This document shows positions 2,842 to 27,377 of a stretch of 64,000 bases of DNA, piece by piece (the stretch's first letter is position 1; every line of letters starts with the position of its first letter). The stretch is from assembly GCF_000421545.1 (NCBI RefSeq), contig NZ_ATXF01000006.1, forward strand, positions 248,001-312,000. The letters run 5' to 3'. The stretch is from Agromyces italicus DSM 16388 (GTDB lineage Bacteria > Actinomycetota > Actinomycetes > Actinomycetales > Microbacteriaceae). Position numbers and translations under genes: made by a program. The notes beneath the pieces are model-generated. The model saw nothing but the letters and a program-made list of their open reading frames with translations. It was not told the DNA's origin and searched no databases.

Positions 2842-3542
2842 TGCGTACAGCTACGTCCGACCTGACGACTCGCGCCCGAATCCGCGACGCGGCCGTCGTG
2901 CTGTTCGGTCGCGACGGCTACGCGGCGACCTCCGTGCGCGCCGTGGCCTCTCTGGCCGACGTCAGCCCGGCGCTCGTCGTGCACCATTTCGCCTCGAAGG
3001 AGGGCCTCCGCCTCGCCTGCGACGACTACGTGGTCGGCGAGTTCCTCGGGCGGAAGGACGACCTCTCCCACGGCGACGCCGCGTCGGCGATCCGGCGCTG
3101 GCTCGCCGACGTCGACACCTACCGCCCGCTGATCGACTACACCGCGCGCATGCTCACCTCGAGCGGCTCCGCCGGCGACGAGCTCTTCGACGCCCTCCTC
3201 GAGGGCACCTCGGCGATGGTCGACGAACAGGTGGCCTCCGGCATCATGCGCGAGCCGAGCGACCGCTCGGCGACCGCGCTCTACCTGACCCTGTACGGCC
3301 TGGTCCCGCTCGTGATGCATCGACAGCTGACACGAGCGCTCGGGGTCGAGCAACTCAGCGCGGCCGGCCTCCGCCGCACGACCGTGCCGATCCTCGAGCT
3401 GTACACCCACGGCCTCTACGCCGACGACCGGTTCCTCGTCGCCGCGCACGAGGCACTCGCGCGCACGAGCGGTCCCCGCTCCGACAAGGGCGAGAACGAC
3501 CCGAATCAAGATCCCGACCCGCCGCGCGGCGCCGGCTCGTGA
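2841..3542 (+). CDS. TetR/AcrR-family transcriptional regulator
   Basis: 233-residue regulator. The N-terminal helix-turn-helix occupies about residues 8-55 (RIRDAAVVLFGRDGYAATSVRAVA, VSPALVVHHFASKEGL). The rest is the helical ligand-binding domain. The ATG at 2841 is preferred over the in-frame GTG at 2790 because a -10 element ends 7 nt before it. The gene is followed 40 bp later by an ABC exporter ATPase and its permease in the same direction, so it most likely represses that exporter in response to the exported compound. The ligand cannot be read from the sequence. Confidence 0.9.
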   Translation: MRTATSDLTTRARIRDAAVVLFGRDGYAATSVRAVASLADVSPALVVHHFASKEGLRLACDDYVVGEFLGRKDDLSHGDAASAIRRWLADVDTYRPLIDYTARMLTSSGSAGDELFDALLEGTSAMVDEQVASGIMREPSDRSATALYLTLYGLVPLVMHRQLTRALGVEQLSAAGLRRTTVPILELYTHGLYADDRFLVAAHEALARTSGPRSDKGENDPNQDPDPPRGAGS

Positions 3543-20641: not shown

Positions 20642-21940
20642 ATGGCCACGAGCGCACGGCCATTCTGGATCTACTGGACCGCGAGCACGACGAGCGGCAT
20701 CGGCACCGCCGTCACCGCCGTCGCGCTGCCCCTCACGGCCGTGACCGTGCTCGGGGCCGGCCCGATCGAGACGGGCCTGCTCGCCGCGTCGTCGTACCTT
20801 GCCTGGGTGGTGCTCGGCCTGCCGGCCGGCGCGATCGTGCATCGGCTGCCGCTCCGCGCCACGCAGGTGGTCGCCGACCTGGTGCGGGCGACGGCGATCC
20901 TCACCGTGCCGCTGGCCTGGTGGCTGGGCGAACTCTCGCTCGCCCACCTCGTCATCACGGCCCTCGCGGTCAACGTCGCCGAGGTGATCTATTTCACGGC
21001 CAACACGACGTTCCTGCCCTCCGTCGTGCCGAGGCACGAACTGACGAGCCGCAACAGCCTCGTCTCGGGCACTCAGGCCGCGACCCAGCTGGGCGGCCCG
21101 TCCGCCGCCGGCCTGCTCGTGCAGGCGATCGGCGCGGTCCCCGCCCTCCTCGTCGACGCAGTCTCCTATCTCGCGTCGGCCCTGCTGCTTCGGCGGCTGC
21201 CCGAGCGGCGCGAGCCCGCACCCGTCGACGGGCGGGAGCGGCCGGGGATGCGAGCGATGATCGCCGAGGGCTGGCGGTTCGTGGTGCGGCACCCGGTGAT
21301 GGCACCGGCCACCTGGTGGGCGTGCGCCGTCAACCTCGTGTGCGGCGTACAGGCCGGCCTGTTCGCGGTGTACCTGGTGCGCGAGCTCGAGGCGCCGCCG
21401 GCCATGGTCGGGCTGTTGCTCGCCGCCGACGGCCTGGGCTCATTGATGGCCGCGGCGGCCACGCCGTGGCTCGTGCGCCGGTTCGGGTCGGCGCGGGTGC
21501 TGCTGGTCGACGGGCTGATCGGATTCGCCGGGGCCGTGCTCATCCCACTCGGCGCCGGCGCCGTCGGCTGGCTGTGCTTCGCGATCGGCACCCTCGTGTT
21601 CGGCGCGTCGGTGGTGCCCGGCAGCGTCGTGACGCGCACCTACCGGCAGGTGGCGAGTCCGCCCGAGCTGCTCTCGCGCGTCATGGCGACCGTGCGCTTC
21701 GTCTCATGGAGCATGATCCCGCTCGGCGCCGTCGTCGCCGGCCTGCTCGCCGAGCAGGTGGGCAGCCGGGCCGTGCTGCTGGGCTCGGCGTTCGTCCTGC
21801 TGCTCGCCCCGATCATCGTGTGGTTCAGCCCCGTCCGGCGACTGCGCGACCTCGACGACTACGACGAGGGGCGGCGCAGCGGGTCCTCGAAGAATTCGAG
21901 CAGCAGCGCTGCGGATGCCTCGGCCTCGACACCCGCGTAG
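20642..21940 (+). CDS. MFS exporter
   Basis: 432-residue major facilitator with about 11-12 transmembrane helices (SGIGTAVTAVALPLTAV, YLAWVVLGLPAGAIVHRLP, AGLLVQAIGAVPALLVDAVSYL). The overall pattern fits MFS_3/MefA-like drug exporters. The ATG at 20642 is set by GAGGAGG. A charged, Ser-rich tail ([13 protein letters not shown]) is encoded by DNA antisense to the 3' end of tadA, an 82-bp convergent overlap. Divergent from the HxlR-peroxiredoxin gene with a shared operator, so probably induced by thiol-reactive or oxidising compounds; substrate unknown. Confidence 0.87.
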   Translation: MATSARPFWIYWTASTTSGIGTAVTAVALPLTAVTVLGAGPIETGLLAASSYLAWVVLGLPAGAIVHRLPLRATQVVADLVRATAILTVPLAWWLGELSLAHLVITALAVNVAEVIYFTANTTFLPSVVPRHELTSRNSLVSGTQAATQLGGPSAAGLLVQAIGAVPALLVDAVSYLASALLLRRLPERREPAPVDGRERPGMRAMIAEGWRFVVRHPVMAPATWWACAVNLVCGVQAGLFAVYLVRELEAPPAMVGLLLAADGLGSLMAAAATPWLVRRFGSARVLLVDGLIGFAGAVLIPLGAGAVGWLCFAIGTLVFGASVVPGSVVTRTYRQVASPPELLSRVMATVRFVSWSMIPLGAVVAGLLAEQVGSRAVLLGSAFVLLLAPIIVWFSPVRRLRDLDDYDEGRRSGSSKNSSSSAADASASTPA

Positions 21941-22341
21941 ACCTCGACCCGATGATTGAGCCGTCGGTCGCGCAGCACGTCGTAGAGCGATCCGGCGGCG
22001 CCGGCCTTCTCGTCCCAGGCGCCGAAGACGACGGTCGGCACCCGTGCGGCGAGGATCGCCCCGGCGCACATGACGCACGGCTCGAGCGTGACGACGAGCG
22101 TGCAGCCCTCGAGTCGCCAGTCGCCGGTCGCCTCGGCCGCGCGTCGCAGCGCGAGCACCTCGGCGTGCGCGGTGGGGTCGCCGTGCAACTCGCGCTCATT
22201 GCGACTCGACGCGATGACGCGGCCGTCGCGGTCGACCACCACGGCGCCGACCGGCACGTCTCGGGTCGCCGGAGCCTCGGCCGCCTCGGCGAGCGCGAGT
22301 CGCATCCACTCGCGGTGGATCGCCGGCCCCGAAGCATCCAT
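21859..22341 (-). CDS. tadA: tRNA(Arg) adenosine-34 deaminase
   Basis: 160-residue zinc deaminase of the CDA fold that converts wobble adenosine of tRNA-Arg(ACG) to inosine. The tRNA-Arg(ACG) gene lies in this window at 27745. The zinc/catalytic motifs are [12 protein letters not shown] and [13 protein letters not shown], with DVPVGAVVV upstream. GAGGGGAG precedes the ATG at 22341. The C-terminal coding region overlaps the MFS gene on the other strand by 82 bp. A guanine/cytosine deaminase is less likely given the full TadA motif set. Confidence 0.93.
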
Positions 22342-22389
22342 GCCGCTCTCCCCTCGCCGAGCCCCTGACGGGAGCAGACCCCCGCAAAC

Positions 22390-22395
22390 TAGAAT
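22390..22395 (+). promoter_or_regulatory. -10 element of leaderless upp
   Basis: TAGAAT lies 7 nt before the ATG of upp at 22403, implying a leaderless transcript. Confidence 0.65.
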
Positions 22396-22402
22396 CAAGC
22401 CT

Positions 22403-23035
22403 ATGCGAGTCCACGTTGCCGATCACCCGCTCATCACCCACAAGCTGACGGTGCTCCGCGACGTGAACACCCCGTCACCCGTCTTCCGCGCGCTCGTCGA
22501 AGAGCTGATGACCCTGCTCGCCTACGAGGGCACGCGCAACGTGCGCGTCACGCCGGTCGAGATCGAGACACCGGTGGCACCGACGACAGGCGTGCGCATC
22601 GCCGAGCCGAAGCCGCTCGTCGTCCCGATCCTGCGGGCGGGCCTCGGCATGCTCGAGGGCATGGTGAAGCTCGTGCCGACGGCCGAGGTCGGGTTCCTCG
22701 GCATGGCGCGCAACGAAGAGACGCTCGAACCGGCGACCTACGCCGAGCGCCTGCCCGACGACCTCTCGGGGCGGCAGTGCTTCGTGCTCGACCCGATGCT
22801 CGCGACGGGCGGCTCGCTCGCCGCGGCGATGGAGTACCTCTTCCAGCGCGGCGCCGACGACGTGACGGCCATCTGCATCCTCGGCACGCCCGAGGGTCTC
22901 GAGGCGGTCGAGAAGGCGATGCACGGCCGCGAGGTCACCATCGTGCTCGGCGCGGTCGACGAGCGCCTCAACGAGCACGGCTTCATCGTGCCGGGTCTCG
23001 GCGACGCGGGCGACCGCCTCTACGGCACGGTATAA
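22403..23035 (+). CDS. upp: Uracil phosphoribosyltransferase
   Basis: 210-residue type I PRTase of pyrimidine salvage: uracil + PRPP gives UMP. Visible motifs: [18 protein letters not shown] at the N-terminus, [14 protein letters not shown], the PRPP-binding loop [19 protein letters not shown], and the uracil-binding end [19 protein letters not shown]. Length and motifs are standard. Divergent from tadA. Confidence 0.96.
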
Positions 23036-23270
23036 GCGCGCCCCGAGGCATCCTCTTCGCAGATTCTTCACGCCTCGACACGCCGGAGCGCAGATCGAGT
23101 GCGGAAGATTCTCTAGATTCGTATCTGATCGCAGAATCTTTCATGCGTGGCATCGGGTCGCCTGATTCCTCCGTATGCCTCGCGCTGACGCGCACCCACT
23201 GCGACGTCACACCCCGTCATCCGAGGGTCATGAATTGACACATGCCCGACCGTCGGATTTACTCGCACCC
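23036..23270. other. Intergenic region with AGATTC repeats
   Basis: No gene seen. It contains AGATTCTT at 23061-23068 and an inverted pair AAGATTCT (23105-23112) / AGAATCTT (23133-23140), with a CTAGATTC in between, in a locally AT-richer stretch. This may be the upp terminator or a binding site upstream of the leader-peptide promoter. Confidence 0.4.
23235..23263 (+). promoter_or_regulatory. Promoter of the Cys-rich leader peptide
   Basis: Consensus TTGACA (23235-23240), a 17-nt spacer and TTTACT (23258-23263). The start point falls at or next to the ATG at 23271, so the leader peptide is translated from a leaderless mRNA. Confidence 0.75.
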
Positions 23271-23372
23271 ATGACTGACAACGCACGCACCCTGACCGCC
23301 CCCGGCGCTCTCAGGACGAACGACATGATGATGTCGTCGCGTGCACCCATGTGTTGTCGAATGTGCCGCTGA
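23271..23372 (+). CDS. Leaderless Cys-rich leader peptide (33 aa)
   Basis: The 33-codon open frame starts MTDNARTL and ends SRAPMCCRMCR, with three Cys codons among the last six. It begins where a consensus promoter would start transcription. In mycobacteria, leaderless short ORFs encoding poly-Cys tails act as cysteine-responsive attenuators: ribosome stalling at Cys codons changes folding of the mRNA ahead of the next gene. Here 159 nt with several alternative hairpins separate it from a winged-helix regulator gene. By analogy it should sense Cys-tRNA supply; that function is inferred, not shown. Confidence 0.65.
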   Translation: MTDNARTLTAPGALRTNDMMMSSRAPMCCRMCR

Positions 23373-23398
23373 CCGCGACCCCTCCGCCGAGTCACGCA

Positions 23399-23498
23399 GC
23401 CGATCAGCATCCCGATCGGCACGGACTCCACTGAACCCGCCGATCTCGGGTTCGCCAGGCCGATCGGCCATTCGTTCAGACCCCGCAGATCGGGGTCT
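23399..23498 (+). promoter_or_regulatory. Candidate attenuator hairpins
   Basis: Between the leader stop and the winged-helix gene: GCCGATC/GATCGGC (23399-23420), GAACCCG/CGGGTTC (23433-23453), palindrome GGCCGATCGGCC (23458-23469) and AGACCCCG/CGGGGTCT (23478-23498). The repeated CCGATC segments can pair in alternative ways, as an attenuator requires. The last hairpin ends about 20 nt before the AAGGA ribosome site. Confidence 0.5.
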
Positions 23499-23531
23499 CC
23501 TGCAGCACCCTCCGACACAAGGATCCCCGTC

Positions 23532-24347
23532 ATGTCTCTCGCACTCGCTCCCGTCCGCACCGCTCCCGTCCGCGCCGTCCAGGCCCGCACCGCTCCGTCG
23601 CTGTCGACCGCCGCCTCGGCCGCTCCGCTCCGCTCGCTCTCGAACGCGGCGGCCGCCGATCTCGCCGCCGCTCACGTCGCGCCCACCGTTGCGGCGTCGG
23701 CTGCCGCTCCCGCAGGGCCCCGTGTCCGCGCCGTGCCCGAGGGCACCGAGGCCCGCGGCTTCGTGCTCTACGTCGGCATCGACGAGTCGAAGGCCGCCGA
23801 GGACGGCACCACCCTCCACCGCATCGTCGAGGCGCTGCGCGCGCTGACCGCCGAGGTCTCGCCCTCGTCCGAGACGTACGCCGCCGTCGCGCTGGCCCCC
23901 GAAGGCGCCGGCGGACGCGACGTCGACGTCGTGCGCCTCGCCCTCCAGGACCCGTCCGCACTCGCGAAGCAGCGCGAGGCGCAGGGCGGCACCCGCGACG
24001 ACGCCGACCGCCACCCCAACGGGGTCATCATCGACATCTCGCGCAAGCGGGTGCTGCTCGACGGCGATGCGGCCGGCCTCACCTACAAGGAGTTCGAACT
24101 GCTCCAGTACCTCGTGCTGCGCGAGGGCCGCACGATCGACCGCCACGAGCTCATCGAGAGCCTCTGGGACGCCGACGACGAGGCGCCCAGCGAGCGCACG
24201 ATCGACGTGCACGTGCGCCGACTCCGCTCGAAGCTCGCGCACTACCAGGACATCGTGCGCACCGTGCGCGGCGTCGGGTACCGCTTCGACCGTCACGCCG
24301 ACGTGTCGATCCGCCAGGCTTCCACGCCCTCGCCCGACCTCTACTGA
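23532..24347 (+). CDS. Orphan winged-helix transcriptional regulator
   Basis: 271-residue protein with a C-terminal OmpR-type winged helix from about residue 175 (LTYKEFELLQYLVLREGRT, SERTIDVHVRRLRSKL, IVRTVRGVGYRFDR). There is no receiver domain: residues 1-60 are Ala/Pro-rich and low-complexity, and residues about 70-150 form a small alpha/beta segment (GFVLYVGIDESKAAEDG) without a phosphoacceptor motif. AAGGA precedes the ATG. It is preceded by a leaderless Cys-rich leader peptide and hairpins, so expression is probably attenuated. It may regulate sulfur or cysteine metabolism; targets are unknown. Confidence 0.82.
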   Translation: MSLALAPVRTAPVRAVQARTAPSLSTAASAAPLRSLSNAAAADLAAAHVAPTVAASAAAPAGPRVRAVPEGTEARGFVLYVGIDESKAAEDGTTLHRIVEALRALTAEVSPSSETYAAVALAPEGAGGRDVDVVRLALQDPSALAKQREAQGGTRDDADRHPNGVIIDISRKRVLLDGDAAGLTYKEFELLQYLVLREGRTIDRHELIESLWDADDEAPSERTIDVHVRRLRSKLAHYQDIVRTVRGVGYRFDRHADVSIRQASTPSPDLY

Positions 24348-25502: not shown

Positions 25503-25802
25503 TCAGGGCCAGTCGACGGTTGCCTCGTAGTCGCCGTGACGGCGAAGATATGCCGCGATGAACGGGCATTCGGGGACGATCCGCTCCCCCCGGGCCACCG
25601 CCTCGTCGAGCACGTGCTTCGCGAGCCGGCTGCCGAGCCCGCGGCCCTCGTACTCGGGCTTGATGACGGTGTGGGTGAACACCACCCTCCCGGGTTCGAG
25701 GCGGTACTGGGCGAAGCCGGCGCGCGCGCCGTCGACCACGAGCTCGTAGCGGTGCCGATCGTCGAGTCGCGTGATCTCGACCGCCCCGCCGGCGTCGCTC
25801 AC
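25503..25802 (-). CDS. Small GNAT-like N-acetyltransferase (YjdJ type)
   Basis: 99-residue single-domain protein of the short GCN5-related branch. The acetyl-CoA loop is PEYEGRGLGSRLAKHVLDEA (Q/RxxGxG/A form), preceded by VVFTHTVIKPEYE and followed by IVPECPFIAAYLRRH. The GTG start overlaps the stop of hsp20 (GTGA), so it is translationally coupled to the heat-shock gene. Substrate unknown; these small acetyltransferases often act on amines or side chains. Confidence 0.85.
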   Translation of the reverse strand: MSDAGGAVEITRLDDRHRYELVVDGARAGFAQYRLEPGRVVFTHTVIKPEYEGRGLGSRLAKHVLDEAVARGERIVPECPFIAAYLRRHGDYEATVDWP

Positions 25803-26260
25803 GGCTCTACCGGTTCGACCGGCCCGACGCGATCGCTCGCGGTCGACTCGGTGCCCGAGGCATCCGTCTGCTCGACCGCGATCTTGCGCGGCTTCGCCTT
25901 CTCGCTGACCGGAATGGTGACGCTCAGCACGCCGTTGCGGTAGCTCGCCGAGATGCGCTCGGTGTCGACGCCCTGACCGAGGTTCAGCTGGCGCAGGAAC
26001 GACGCGGCCTCGCGCTCGCGCGTGATCCACTTGACGCCGTCGCCGGTGGTGAGCGTGCGCTCAGCCCGGATCGTGAGCAATTGGCCGTCCACGTCGATGT
26101 CGACGGAGCCGGGGTCGATGCCCGGCAGGTCGGCGGTGAGCACGTAGTGGTCGCCGTCTCGGTAGAGATCCATCGGCATGCGCCGCGGCCCGCGGCGGGG
26201 CTCGAACAGCGCCGACGCGACTCGGTCGAGGTCGCGGAACGGGTCGTATGCGGTGGCCAT
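25799..26260 (-). CDS. Hsp20/alpha-crystallin small heat-shock protein
   Basis: 153-residue ATP-independent chaperone. The alpha-crystallin domain spans about residues 30-130: MDLYRDGDHYVLTADLPG, VDIDVDGQLLTIRAER, FLRQLNLGQGVD and ASYRNGVLSVTIPVSEKA, followed by an Ala/Glu tail. ATG 26260 has AGGAGG upstream; an in-frame ATG at 26290 lies before it. A HAIR operator lies 21 bp upstream, so it is probably repressed by HspR and induced by heat. Coupled to the GNAT gene. The tail of the upstream DUF998 frame overlaps its 5' 200 bp in another frame. Confidence 0.92.
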   Translation of the reverse strand: MATAYDPFRDLDRVASALFEPRRGPRRMPMDLYRDGDHYVLTADLPGIDPGSVDIDVDGQLLTIRAERTLTTGDGVKWITREREAASFLRQLNLGQGVDTERISASYRNGVLSVTIPVSEKAKPRKIAVEQTDASGTESTASDRVGPVEPVEP

Positions 26261-27377
26261 CTTTCCTCCTGATCGGTTTTCTTGAGCCATCTCGACTCAA
26301 CTCTCTACCGAACCCAACGCTGCGCCCGTCGGAGGATTCCGCCCCGGCGTGCGCCGACAGCGAACGGCCGTGACCGTGATGGTGGCCGGAGGTCGTCGCG
26401 ACGAGCGCGATCAGCCAGGCGAAGACGAGCGCGAACGCGATGATCTCGAAGACCGTCAGGCTGAACCAGCCGAGCGCGTCGTAGCCCGCCATCGCCACGA
26501 GCTCGAGCGCCAGCGCGGCGTACGAGAACACGAGGAGCCGACGCGGCAACCGCCGCGCGTACCACCGGGCCCCGACGCACAGGAGCGCGAACGCGAGGGC
26601 GGCGCCGAGCGCGAAGGCGTTGTGCAGCTCGGCCTGGCGGTCGATCGGCACCGTGCCGACACCCATGAGCCCGAATCCGACGAGCCCGATGAGCACTCGC
26701 ATCGTCGTACGCGCCCCTCGCCGAATCGCGAAGGCGCCGAACGCGAGCGCCCGGGTGAGCGCGCCCGAGAGACCCGCCATGCCCGCGCCCGAGACGACCA
26801 CGGCGACGTTGAAGCAGACGGCGGCGAGGTCGTTCGACGTGCCGAGGGTGCTGAAGTTGTGCGCCCACCAGTCGCCCGTCGGGGTGATGCTCATGCTCGC
26901 GAGACTTCCGGCCGCGAGCAGCATCGCGACGAGGTTGAAGGTGCGGTACGCCTCGTGATCGAGGGCATGCCGATGCAGGCGGTACGTGCCGACGCCGAAG
27001 GCCGCCCCGAGCAGGCAGCCGATCGTTCGGGGCCCGCCCGGCAGCGGCTCGAAGGCCGCCGCGGTGAAGTGCACGGCGAGCAGCGCGAGCGCCGCCCAGG
27101 TGAGTCCGTTGGCGACCGCCCTGGGCCCCGGGCCGAGACCGGGCAGGCGCAGGTGCGCGATCGAGGCGAGACCCGCGTGCGACGCGGAGACGGCGGTGAG
27201 CGCAGCACACACCGCCGCACCGCCCGCGAGCGCGGGAATGAGCCCGACGACGTCGAGGGCACTCGCGGGATCGAGCGCGGCGGGCGCGAACGCGCGGGCG
27301 AGGACGACCGAGATCGCCGCGGCGATGAGCAGCGCGTAGAGCCGACGCACGAGCGAGACGAGGCGGCCCGGATGCAT
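26061..27377 (-). CDS. DUF998-family membrane protein (3' end uncertain)
   Basis: Polytopic protein with about nine transmembrane segments; ITPTGDWWAHNFSTLG and GTVPIDRQAELHNAFALGAALAF are typical of DUF998. The membrane part ends near residue 345 (IALVATTSGHHHGHG). The open frame then continues about 90 Arg-rich, non-conserved residues to 26061, running 200 bp into hsp20 in another frame and across the HAIR operator. Another frame has a TAG at 26305, so a one-base indel near 26340 would end the protein there; either a frameshift or a real overlap is possible. Start 27377 (MHPGRLVSL) is tentative, with no clear ribosome site. Function unknown. Confidence 0.6.
   Translation of the reverse strand: MHPGRLVSLVRRLYALLIAAAISVVLARAFAPAALDPASALDVVGLIPALAGGAAVCAALTAVSASHAGLASIAHLRLPGLGPGPRAVANGLTWAALALLAVHFTAAAFEPLPGGPRTIGCLLGAAFGVGTYRLHRHALDHEAYRTFNLVAMLLAAGSLASMSITPTGDWWAHNFSTLGTSNDLAAVCFNVAVVVSGAGMAGLSGALTRALAFGAFAIRRGARTTMRVLIGLVGFGLMGVGTVPIDRQAELHNAFALGAALAFALLCVGARWYARRLPRRLLVFSYAALALELVAMAGYDALGWFSLTVFEIIAFALVFAWLIALVATTSGHHHGHGRSLSAHAGAESSDGRSVGFGRELSRDGSRKPIRRKDGHRIRPVPRPRPSRVGAVRAPPRAAAHADGSLPRRRPLRAHRRPAGHRPRLRRHRRGRPIAHDPG
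26281..26301. promoter_or_regulatory. HAIR (HspR) operator upstream of hsp20
   Basis: CTTGAGC-N7-ACTCAAC matches 12 of 14 positions of the HspR-associated inverted repeat CTTGAGT-N7-ACTCAAG and sits 21 bp before the hsp20 ATG. hspR itself is not in the window. Confidence 0.75.

Follow-up and report, generated by a model that had tools for sequence, protein, structure and literature searches.

In the 64,000-nucleotide stretch of Agromyces italicus DSM 16388 DNA analysed here (the window), a short open reading frame with Cys codons before its stop precedes the gene of a winged-helix regulator. This leader is more frequent than chance, and in most cases it immediately precedes the same winged-helix gene. 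We lean towards interpreting it as a leaderless translated attenuator that would couple cysteine supply to synthesis of a sulfur regulator.

Results

Layout of the locus

A sequence-only reading had described a TTGACA-N17-TTTACT promoter, an ATG at 23271, a 33-codon frame ending in MCCRMCR, hairpins and a winged-helix gene, and we found all of these elements where it had placed them, on the forward strand. The −35 element TTGACA (23235–23240), which as read from the sequence is of the TTGAC type present in most of the homologous loci listed, is followed after 17 nt by the −10 element TTTACT (23258–23263), ending 7 nt before the ATG. The frame of leaderless type, as judged from the sequence and its homologues, has 33 codons encoding MTDNARTLTAPGALRTNDMMMSSRAPMCCRMCR (23271–23372), with the core codons TGT TGT CGA ATG TGC CGC, also seen in homologous leaders, preceding the stop (23352–23369). 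After a spacer (23373–23531), in which the sequence AAGGA (23519–23523) reads as the Shine–Dalgarno (SD) sequence of the regulator, the regulator gene (23532–24347) encodes an unnamed N-terminal part and an OmpR/PhoB-type winged helix similar to the DNA-binding domain of GlnR. The description of the promoter as a consensus promoter held only in part, for the −35 element is perfect but TTTACT lacks an A at its second position, and a sigma-70 consensus scan of 23040–23600 reported no promoter; the leader promoter is credible because it is conserved across loci, not because of its consensus.

The genes preceding the leader, both named by eye, are tadA (21859–22398, reverse strand) and upp (22403–23035, forward strand), and genes likewise named by eye as tadA and upp were located upstream in 70 and 74 of 80 homologous loci, respectively. 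A gene for a small heat-shock-like protein (MATAYDPFRDLDRVASALFEPRRG..., by eye) is found at 25799–26290 on the reverse strand. Searching the window for Rfam families at gathering scores gave nothing beyond three tRNAs. As to a possible link with tRNA-Arg, no such gene was found in the 3-kb flanks of the 25 loci scanned; that of the window lies 3.4 kb downstream, outside the flanks covered by the scan.

Conservation of the leader upstream of the regulator gene

Using the best 80 of at least 103 regulator relatives in named genomes, we found the leader core upstream in 79, with the sole exception (locus L018) being a sequence that begins 43 nt ahead of the gene match. Of 199 Microbacteriaceae genomes, 127 contained a strict DNA pattern for the leader end, TGYCGAATGTGYNSYTRR, and the backward control had zero matches. 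Among the 133 matches of the pattern, 116 sit on the same strand as the regulator and 37–471 nt ahead of where the regulator match starts, 7 are placed otherwise (one being at a contig edge), and the remaining 10 are in genomes outside the regulator matches listed. A class-wide draw gave the strict pattern in 17 of 21 Microbacteriaceae and in 6 of 373 other genomes. It matches once in the A. italicus genome itself, which thereby has one leader copy, and we rejected the idea of a second.

Regulator matches were listed for 150 of the 199 genomes, within which variant leaders were also sought. The strict pattern was missing in 32 of these 150, and a leader was held by 38 of 40 stretches representing those 32 and 8 others, the exceptions being L115 and L125 (contig end). 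The variant leader ends, selected by eye, include MCCRMHA, MCCRMSA, SSCRMPA, RRRMCR and ACTRMCCCN. The leader together with its promoter was found in 126 of 129 Microbacteriaceae loci (a set to which the leader pattern had itself contributed 8 loci and in which certain genomes are counted twice), with 116 distinct leaders, and conservation of the Cys-rich tail upstream of regulator orthologues was thereby confirmed.

When promoters were picked regardless of frame, 6–7 nt separated the −10 element from an ATG in 121 of 123 loci, and in 122 of the 123 the reading frame of this ATG was that of the core, a test of the frame that is weakened by pre-selection of the loci for an in-frame start and for a stop 1–5 codons after CGA-ATG. 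In 3 of 126 loci there was no ATG near the chosen promoter. The leaders are 22–44 codons long, and searches of Pfam and NCBIfam with the leader peptide gave no family. At locus L063 (Curtobacterium UCD-AKU), having its leader stop 243 nt before position 3001, the frame is shifted in relation to the core, by either natural loss or a sequencing error. In at least five loci (L003, L016, L017, L037 and L045), the frame of the regulator has in-frame starts inside the leader, an observation that bears on a possible fusion of the two by frameshifting.

The regulator and its possible link to sulfur

By its Trans_reg_C winged helix (PF00486, 80.8 bits versus a cut-off of 26.2), the product of the regulator gene is assigned to the OmpR/PhoB type. 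It is 93% identical to its counterpart in Agromyces lapidis, and the closest solved DNA-binding domain is that of GlnR (8hml, 46% identity). Pfam gave no match before residue 182, receiver domain included, and the AlphaFold model has a pLDDT of 36–65 per block over residues 1–160; we gave up naming the N-terminal domain from this model, which is too weak there.

When 296 genomes of the class were searched with regulator residues 60–166, 6 of them, belonging to three other families, gave matches. Within one family of the same order (f2), a leader ending in CCRMHA was present in 6 of 18 genomes drawn, as compared to 0 of 230 other genomes, with the regulator motif behind it in 5 of the 6. In another family (f27), a regulator orthologue was found in 7 of 22 genomes, in 4 of which the query matched the C-terminal domain only. 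All seven orthologues are preceded by a leader ending in QLC[RH] and followed by a match to a sulfate-binding protein, typed as such in L155 only (TIGR00971, 176.4 bits versus 155.5). The f27 leaders (L165–L171) constitute a second short leader type, VPRLLLTQRRAVDLMRVASQLC[RH], with a GTG start. The f6 family locus L152 has a homologue of the regulator together with a candidate uORF, MTAMHRSPCHRLARSAIAMMRCVRGLR; an upp-like C-terminus was noted upstream by eye.

Adjoining the −35 element of the leader promoter is a putative operator (23206–23231, forward strand) of direct repeats with a period of 10/11 nt, formed by GTCAC at 23206 and GTCAT at 23216 and 23227, and GTCAC-N5-GTCAY-N6-GTCAY stands beside the −35 element in the majority of the 23 leader promoters listed from Agromyces. 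Searching the A. italicus genome for GTGACN{5,6}RTGAC gave 19 matches versus 3 for the backward control. Two of these precede a sulfite reductase gene and a gene for an NlpA-type (MetQ-like) lipoprotein followed by an ABC ATPase, a pair that by our reading is metQ-metN. Others precede a DUF4349 lipoprotein (three GTGAC with a period of 11 nt; L235, near 1501–1527), a solute-binding protein and a UbiA-family gene; in total, 17 of the 19 lie away from recognised sulfur genes and 8 are inside predicted frames. Within Agromyces the repeats were found at 9 of 11 sulfite-reductase promoters, at 20 of 24 leader promoters (which had themselves defined the motif, were scanned over 85 nt, and include one genome more than once), and at 7 of 9 metQ promoters, counting that of A. 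italicus where this site was first noticed. As controls, a GTGAC repeat occurred in 7 of 1097 random 300-nt segments, mostly within genes, and before 9 of 53 other predicted frames, of which 6 proved to be sulfite-reductase or metQ promoters, leaving 3 of 47 at two places. One repeat precedes a frame starting PPALVGISHG that is perhaps a siroheme-type gene (by eye; L218, 1564).

The motif is limited to Agromyces and one nearby genus. In other genera it was found at 0 of 101 leader promoters, the lone match filed there (L086) being the locus of the window, and outside Agromyces at 2 of 8 sulfite-reductase promoters. A full-length sulfite reductase was present in only 8 of 24 chosen leader-bearing genomes of other genera, with none in the other 16, and sulfate reduction can therefore not be the sole target of the regulator. 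A role in sulfur metabolism is thus hinted at in Agromyces and f27, and the protein may be a sulfur regulator; the sulfate-binding neighbour in f27 together with the shared repeats in Agromyces also makes a cysteine or sulfur signal likely. The regulator had been called an orphan, but functionally it may not be one.

The leader could be as described here and the regulon still be wrong, if the GTGAC repeats are sites of GlnR, which exerts nitrogen control, while the regulator behind the leader has other targets. GlnR boxes have the form GTnAC-n6-GTnAC, GlnR itself could bind the repeats, and leader and regulator are also present in genera without them. We regard this as a serious but unlikely possibility, as two of the few promoter-placed matches in the A. 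italicus genome belong to sulfite reductase and the NlpA-type lipoprotein, and the orthologue in f27 adjoins a sulfate-binding protein.

The spacer between leader and regulator

No intrinsic terminator was found between leader and regulator, with 0 terminator-like sites in 23040–23600, and this empty scan led us to reject intrinsic termination as in a classical trp-type attenuator. A consensus fold of 13 Agromyces sequences contains four spacer hairpins, all on the forward strand: GAGTC/GACTC around CCGATC/GATCGG (23389–23428), GAACCC/GGGTTC (23433–23453), GGCC/GGCC (23458–23469) and GACCCC/GGGGTC (23479–23497), the last without a T tract behind it. Of the 74 pairs predicted in this fold, 4 have a double change. 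The CCGATC hairpins noted earlier are thus indeed present between leader and gene, but they are not intrinsic terminators and are confined to Agromyces, since 10 of 13 Agromyces spacers contain both CCGATC and GATCGG, as compared to 0 of 29 spacers from elsewhere in the family.

The spacer of the window (C 0.43, G 0.25) is a candidate Rho loading region. Over 42 loci, hand-chosen from the 80 and including that of the window, the spacer was C-rich and G-poor in every case, with a mean C-over-G skew of 0.27 and a minimum of 0.20, as compared to a mean of 0.03 (range −0.17 to 0.23) for upstream control sequence. This resemblance to a Rho loading region suggests Rho as the terminating factor, and the C-rich, G-poor spacer combined with the lack of an intrinsic terminator favours Rho-dependent attenuation.

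An alternative is translational attenuation, a mechanism also proposed for cysteine leaders of mycobacteria, whereby leader RNA at the Cys codons would pair with the ribosome-binding site (RBS) of the regulator and a ribosome stalled at these codons would free that site. In the consensus fold of the 13 Agromyces sequences, UGUGU of the Cys codons does pair with ACACA beside AAGGA, and of the masks tried, that of 30 nt from leader position 54 raised SD accessibility most, by +0.06 on average and by more than +0.1 in 12 of 28 loci. Cysteine genes of Mycobacterium smegmatis are also described as being under translation attenuation in PMC13236596. However, the pairing of leaders with their own RBS was on average no different from cross-locus pairing (−9.03 versus −9.09 kcal/mol, in the same hand-chosen 42 loci), and the masking effect, with a standard deviation of 0.18, was missing or reversed in many non-Agromyces loci. 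These two results weaken sequestration of the SD sequence as a family-wide mechanism, and we consider translational attenuation rather improbable.

Codon usage in the leader

At least one Cys codon was present among the last eight codons in all of 125 leaders and at least two in 122, the number being down to one in the remaining 3. Within these last eight codons TGT outnumbers TGC by 261 to 70, in contrast to 30 versus 302 in neighbouring genes (TGT in 30 of 332 Cys codons). Across the 80 loci, codon −5 is TGT in 73 and TGC in 7, while codon −4 is CGA in all 80 although any CGN was allowed and CGA makes up 6.5% of the Arg codons in nearby genes; as the search had fixed TGY at −5, CG at −4 and ATG at −3, the third base of CGA was the only free base of the CGA-ATG pair. 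The variant leaders likewise read CGAATG. In the Microbacteriaceae leaders found, CGA-ATG is invariant and the Cys codons shift in number and place. The tail is accordingly Cys-rich as had been noted, with Cys codons at the leader end, but the codons that never vary are CGA-ATG. This is an argument against a pure Cys sensor, which should keep its Cys codons invariant and leave CGA-ATG free, the reverse of what was seen.

Mean column entropy in the 80 leaders, with ATG codons excluded, was 0.905, 0.993 and 0.983 for codon positions 1–3, and as there is no peak at the third position, selection on the peptide itself is not apparent. It looks as if nucleotides and codons are conserved rather than the peptide. 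The proposal of a Cys-responsive attenuator thus retains a conserved Cys-ending frame of leaderless type tied to a transcription factor gene, but selection at the level of the peptide is not visible.

These codons give rise to another explanation, namely a codon or nascent-chain sensor that is not specific for cysteine, with CGA-ATG as the decisive slow step and with translation stress (the signal of whiB7/wblC leaders), arginine-tRNA or tRNA modification as the signal. CGA is read by the inosine-containing tRNA-Arg, for which TadA makes the inosine. The invariance of CGA against local usage, its retention with ATG in the f2 leaders and the frequent presence of tadA upstream would all agree with such a sensor. 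On the other hand, CGAATG was not seen in the sequence preceding the f6 and f27 homologues inspected (L152–L156), the missing three-base periodicity speaks against a sequence-specific arrest peptide, and the sulfur association would be left unexplained. Moreover, tadA and upp are absent beside the leader at L150, the only f2 locus listed, which also weakens the tadA neighbourhood as a cause of the CGA codon. All in all we find this explanation quite improbable, and continue to prefer an attenuator responding to cysteine.

A hairpin within the frame

Covariation and consensus folds pointed to a hairpin inside the leader frame, ACGACAT-GATG-ATGTCGT with 7 bp (23320–23337, forward strand), over three consecutive Met codons. 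The top covarying column pair in the alignment of 80 sequences (53–64) falls within it, and its versions at other loci include GCCGGCAT-GATG-ATGCCGGC, TGCCGACAT-GATG-ATGTCGGCG and GCCGGC-ATGATGATG-GCCGGC. Taken together with a small preceding hairpin, it gave a covariation of 0.153 versus 0.102 in shuffles (65 leaders; reached by 0 of 500), scores that are inflated by relatedness, with 26 versus 8.9 double changes, and slid versions of the pairing scored 0.044–0.099. The number of pairs with a double change was unexceptional (reached by 94 of 500 shuffles), as were further pair types (228 of 500). The RNAalifold covariation term for the leaders was not favourable (+0.11), RNAalifold on the 80 leaders with 40 nt downstream gave no structure, and the hairpin is absent from several short leaders such as L041, L042 and L121. 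The hairpin hence appears to covary in part. Concerning two mutually exclusive structures, a feature of trp-type attenuators, the first covaries partly while a competing second hairpin over the Cys codons had zero double changes and was discarded as a candidate.

A structured 5′ RNA with an incidental open frame, which would fit conservation of nucleotides rather than peptide, the partly covarying hairpin and the frameshift at L063, is highly improbable, because the frame is kept at 22–44 codons in nearly all of the loci (selected for an in-frame start), the ATG is fixed at the predicted start site and every leader has Cys codons.

Discussion

We propose that RNA polymerase would start at or beside the leader ATG and that a ribosome would load at once, the latter deduced from the conserved spacing to the −10 element. 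With plentiful Cys-tRNA the ribosome would pass the slow TGT-TGT-CGA-ATG-TGY codons, stop and leave, whereupon 129–266 nt of C-rich untranslated RNA would let Rho terminate transcription before the regulator gene. With scarce Cys-tRNA it would instead halt on the Cys codons before the stop and cover the entry to the spacer, such that transcription could continue. A ribosome halted just before the stop represents a tnaC-like geometry. The mid-frame hairpin may serve to pace both the polymerase and the ribosome. The signal of the leader is likely cysteine. The regulator would subsequently act at the GTGAC direct repeats of the sulfite-reductase operon, metQ and its own promoter, which are sites seen in Agromyces with presumed binding. 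Lying upstream of a regulator of several promoters, the leader would therefore gate that regulator and not a single pathway.

A more far-reaching version is doubtful in our view. In that version, leaderless frames throughout the family would sense cysteine supply through a slow, invariant CGA-ATG pair, with rare TGT codons on its flanks and a pause hairpin ahead of it, and would gate a sulfur master regulator. Control would have two tiers, the leader and autoregulation at the GTGAC repeats, and the CGA step would also tie the output to the inosine tRNA-Arg made through the neighbouring tadA.

Should the preferred interpretation of a cysteine-responsive attenuator be right, a whole regulon instead of a pathway would be set by one short leader, and a single locus would reveal the regulator together with its likely sites and signal. 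The TGT and CGA codons, apparently selected against local preference, would also offer a case in nature for testing why regulation relies on rare codons. No account of this leader, or of sensing of sulfur supply in Microbacteriaceae, came up in our searches of open-access literature.

Leaderless polycysteine uORFs of mycobacteria are reportedly described by Canestrari et al. in 2020. Such uORFs are also covered in PMC9031893, PMC9094748 and PMC13236596, and Cys-ending uORFs before cysA2 in the related PMC4633059. The leader studied here is similar in having a leaderless start (here predicted), Cys codons, the position of a short frame upstream and a sulfur theme. It differs in that a transcription factor gene comes next, that CGA-ATG interrupts the Cys codons, that a hairpin lies within the frame and that other families are involved. 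The Cys codons cluster before the stop in all 125 leaders as they do in polycysteine uORFs, but instead of a sulfur or cysteine operon a winged-helix regulator gene follows, making the link to sulfur indirect.

Actinobacterial cys and cbs operons have leader peptides with Cys runs for which no terminator was found and Rho was suggested, according to PMC1262725, which rated its own Rho prediction for the mycobacterial leaders as rather weak. The leaders described there share with ours the Cys codons near the stop, the lack of a detected terminator and the suggestion of Rho, although they precede metabolic operons and are from mycobacteria, Propionibacterium and Bifidobacterium.

With GlnR (PDB 8hml, 8hig and 8hih) the regulator shares a DNA-binding domain of 44–46% identity and a direct-repeat operator, putative in our case, but unlike GlnR it has no Pfam family before residue 182, and its genomic links are to sulfur, not nitrogen.

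The leader of whiB7/wblC has a Rho-independent terminator. In PMC13236596, whiB7/wblC is named as a transcription factor under uORF control, and in both systems a uORF would gate a transcription factor gene and hence a wider programme. The signal there is the inhibitor-stalled ribosome, whereas the leader described here has Cys codons, no intrinsic terminator and an unrelated regulator.
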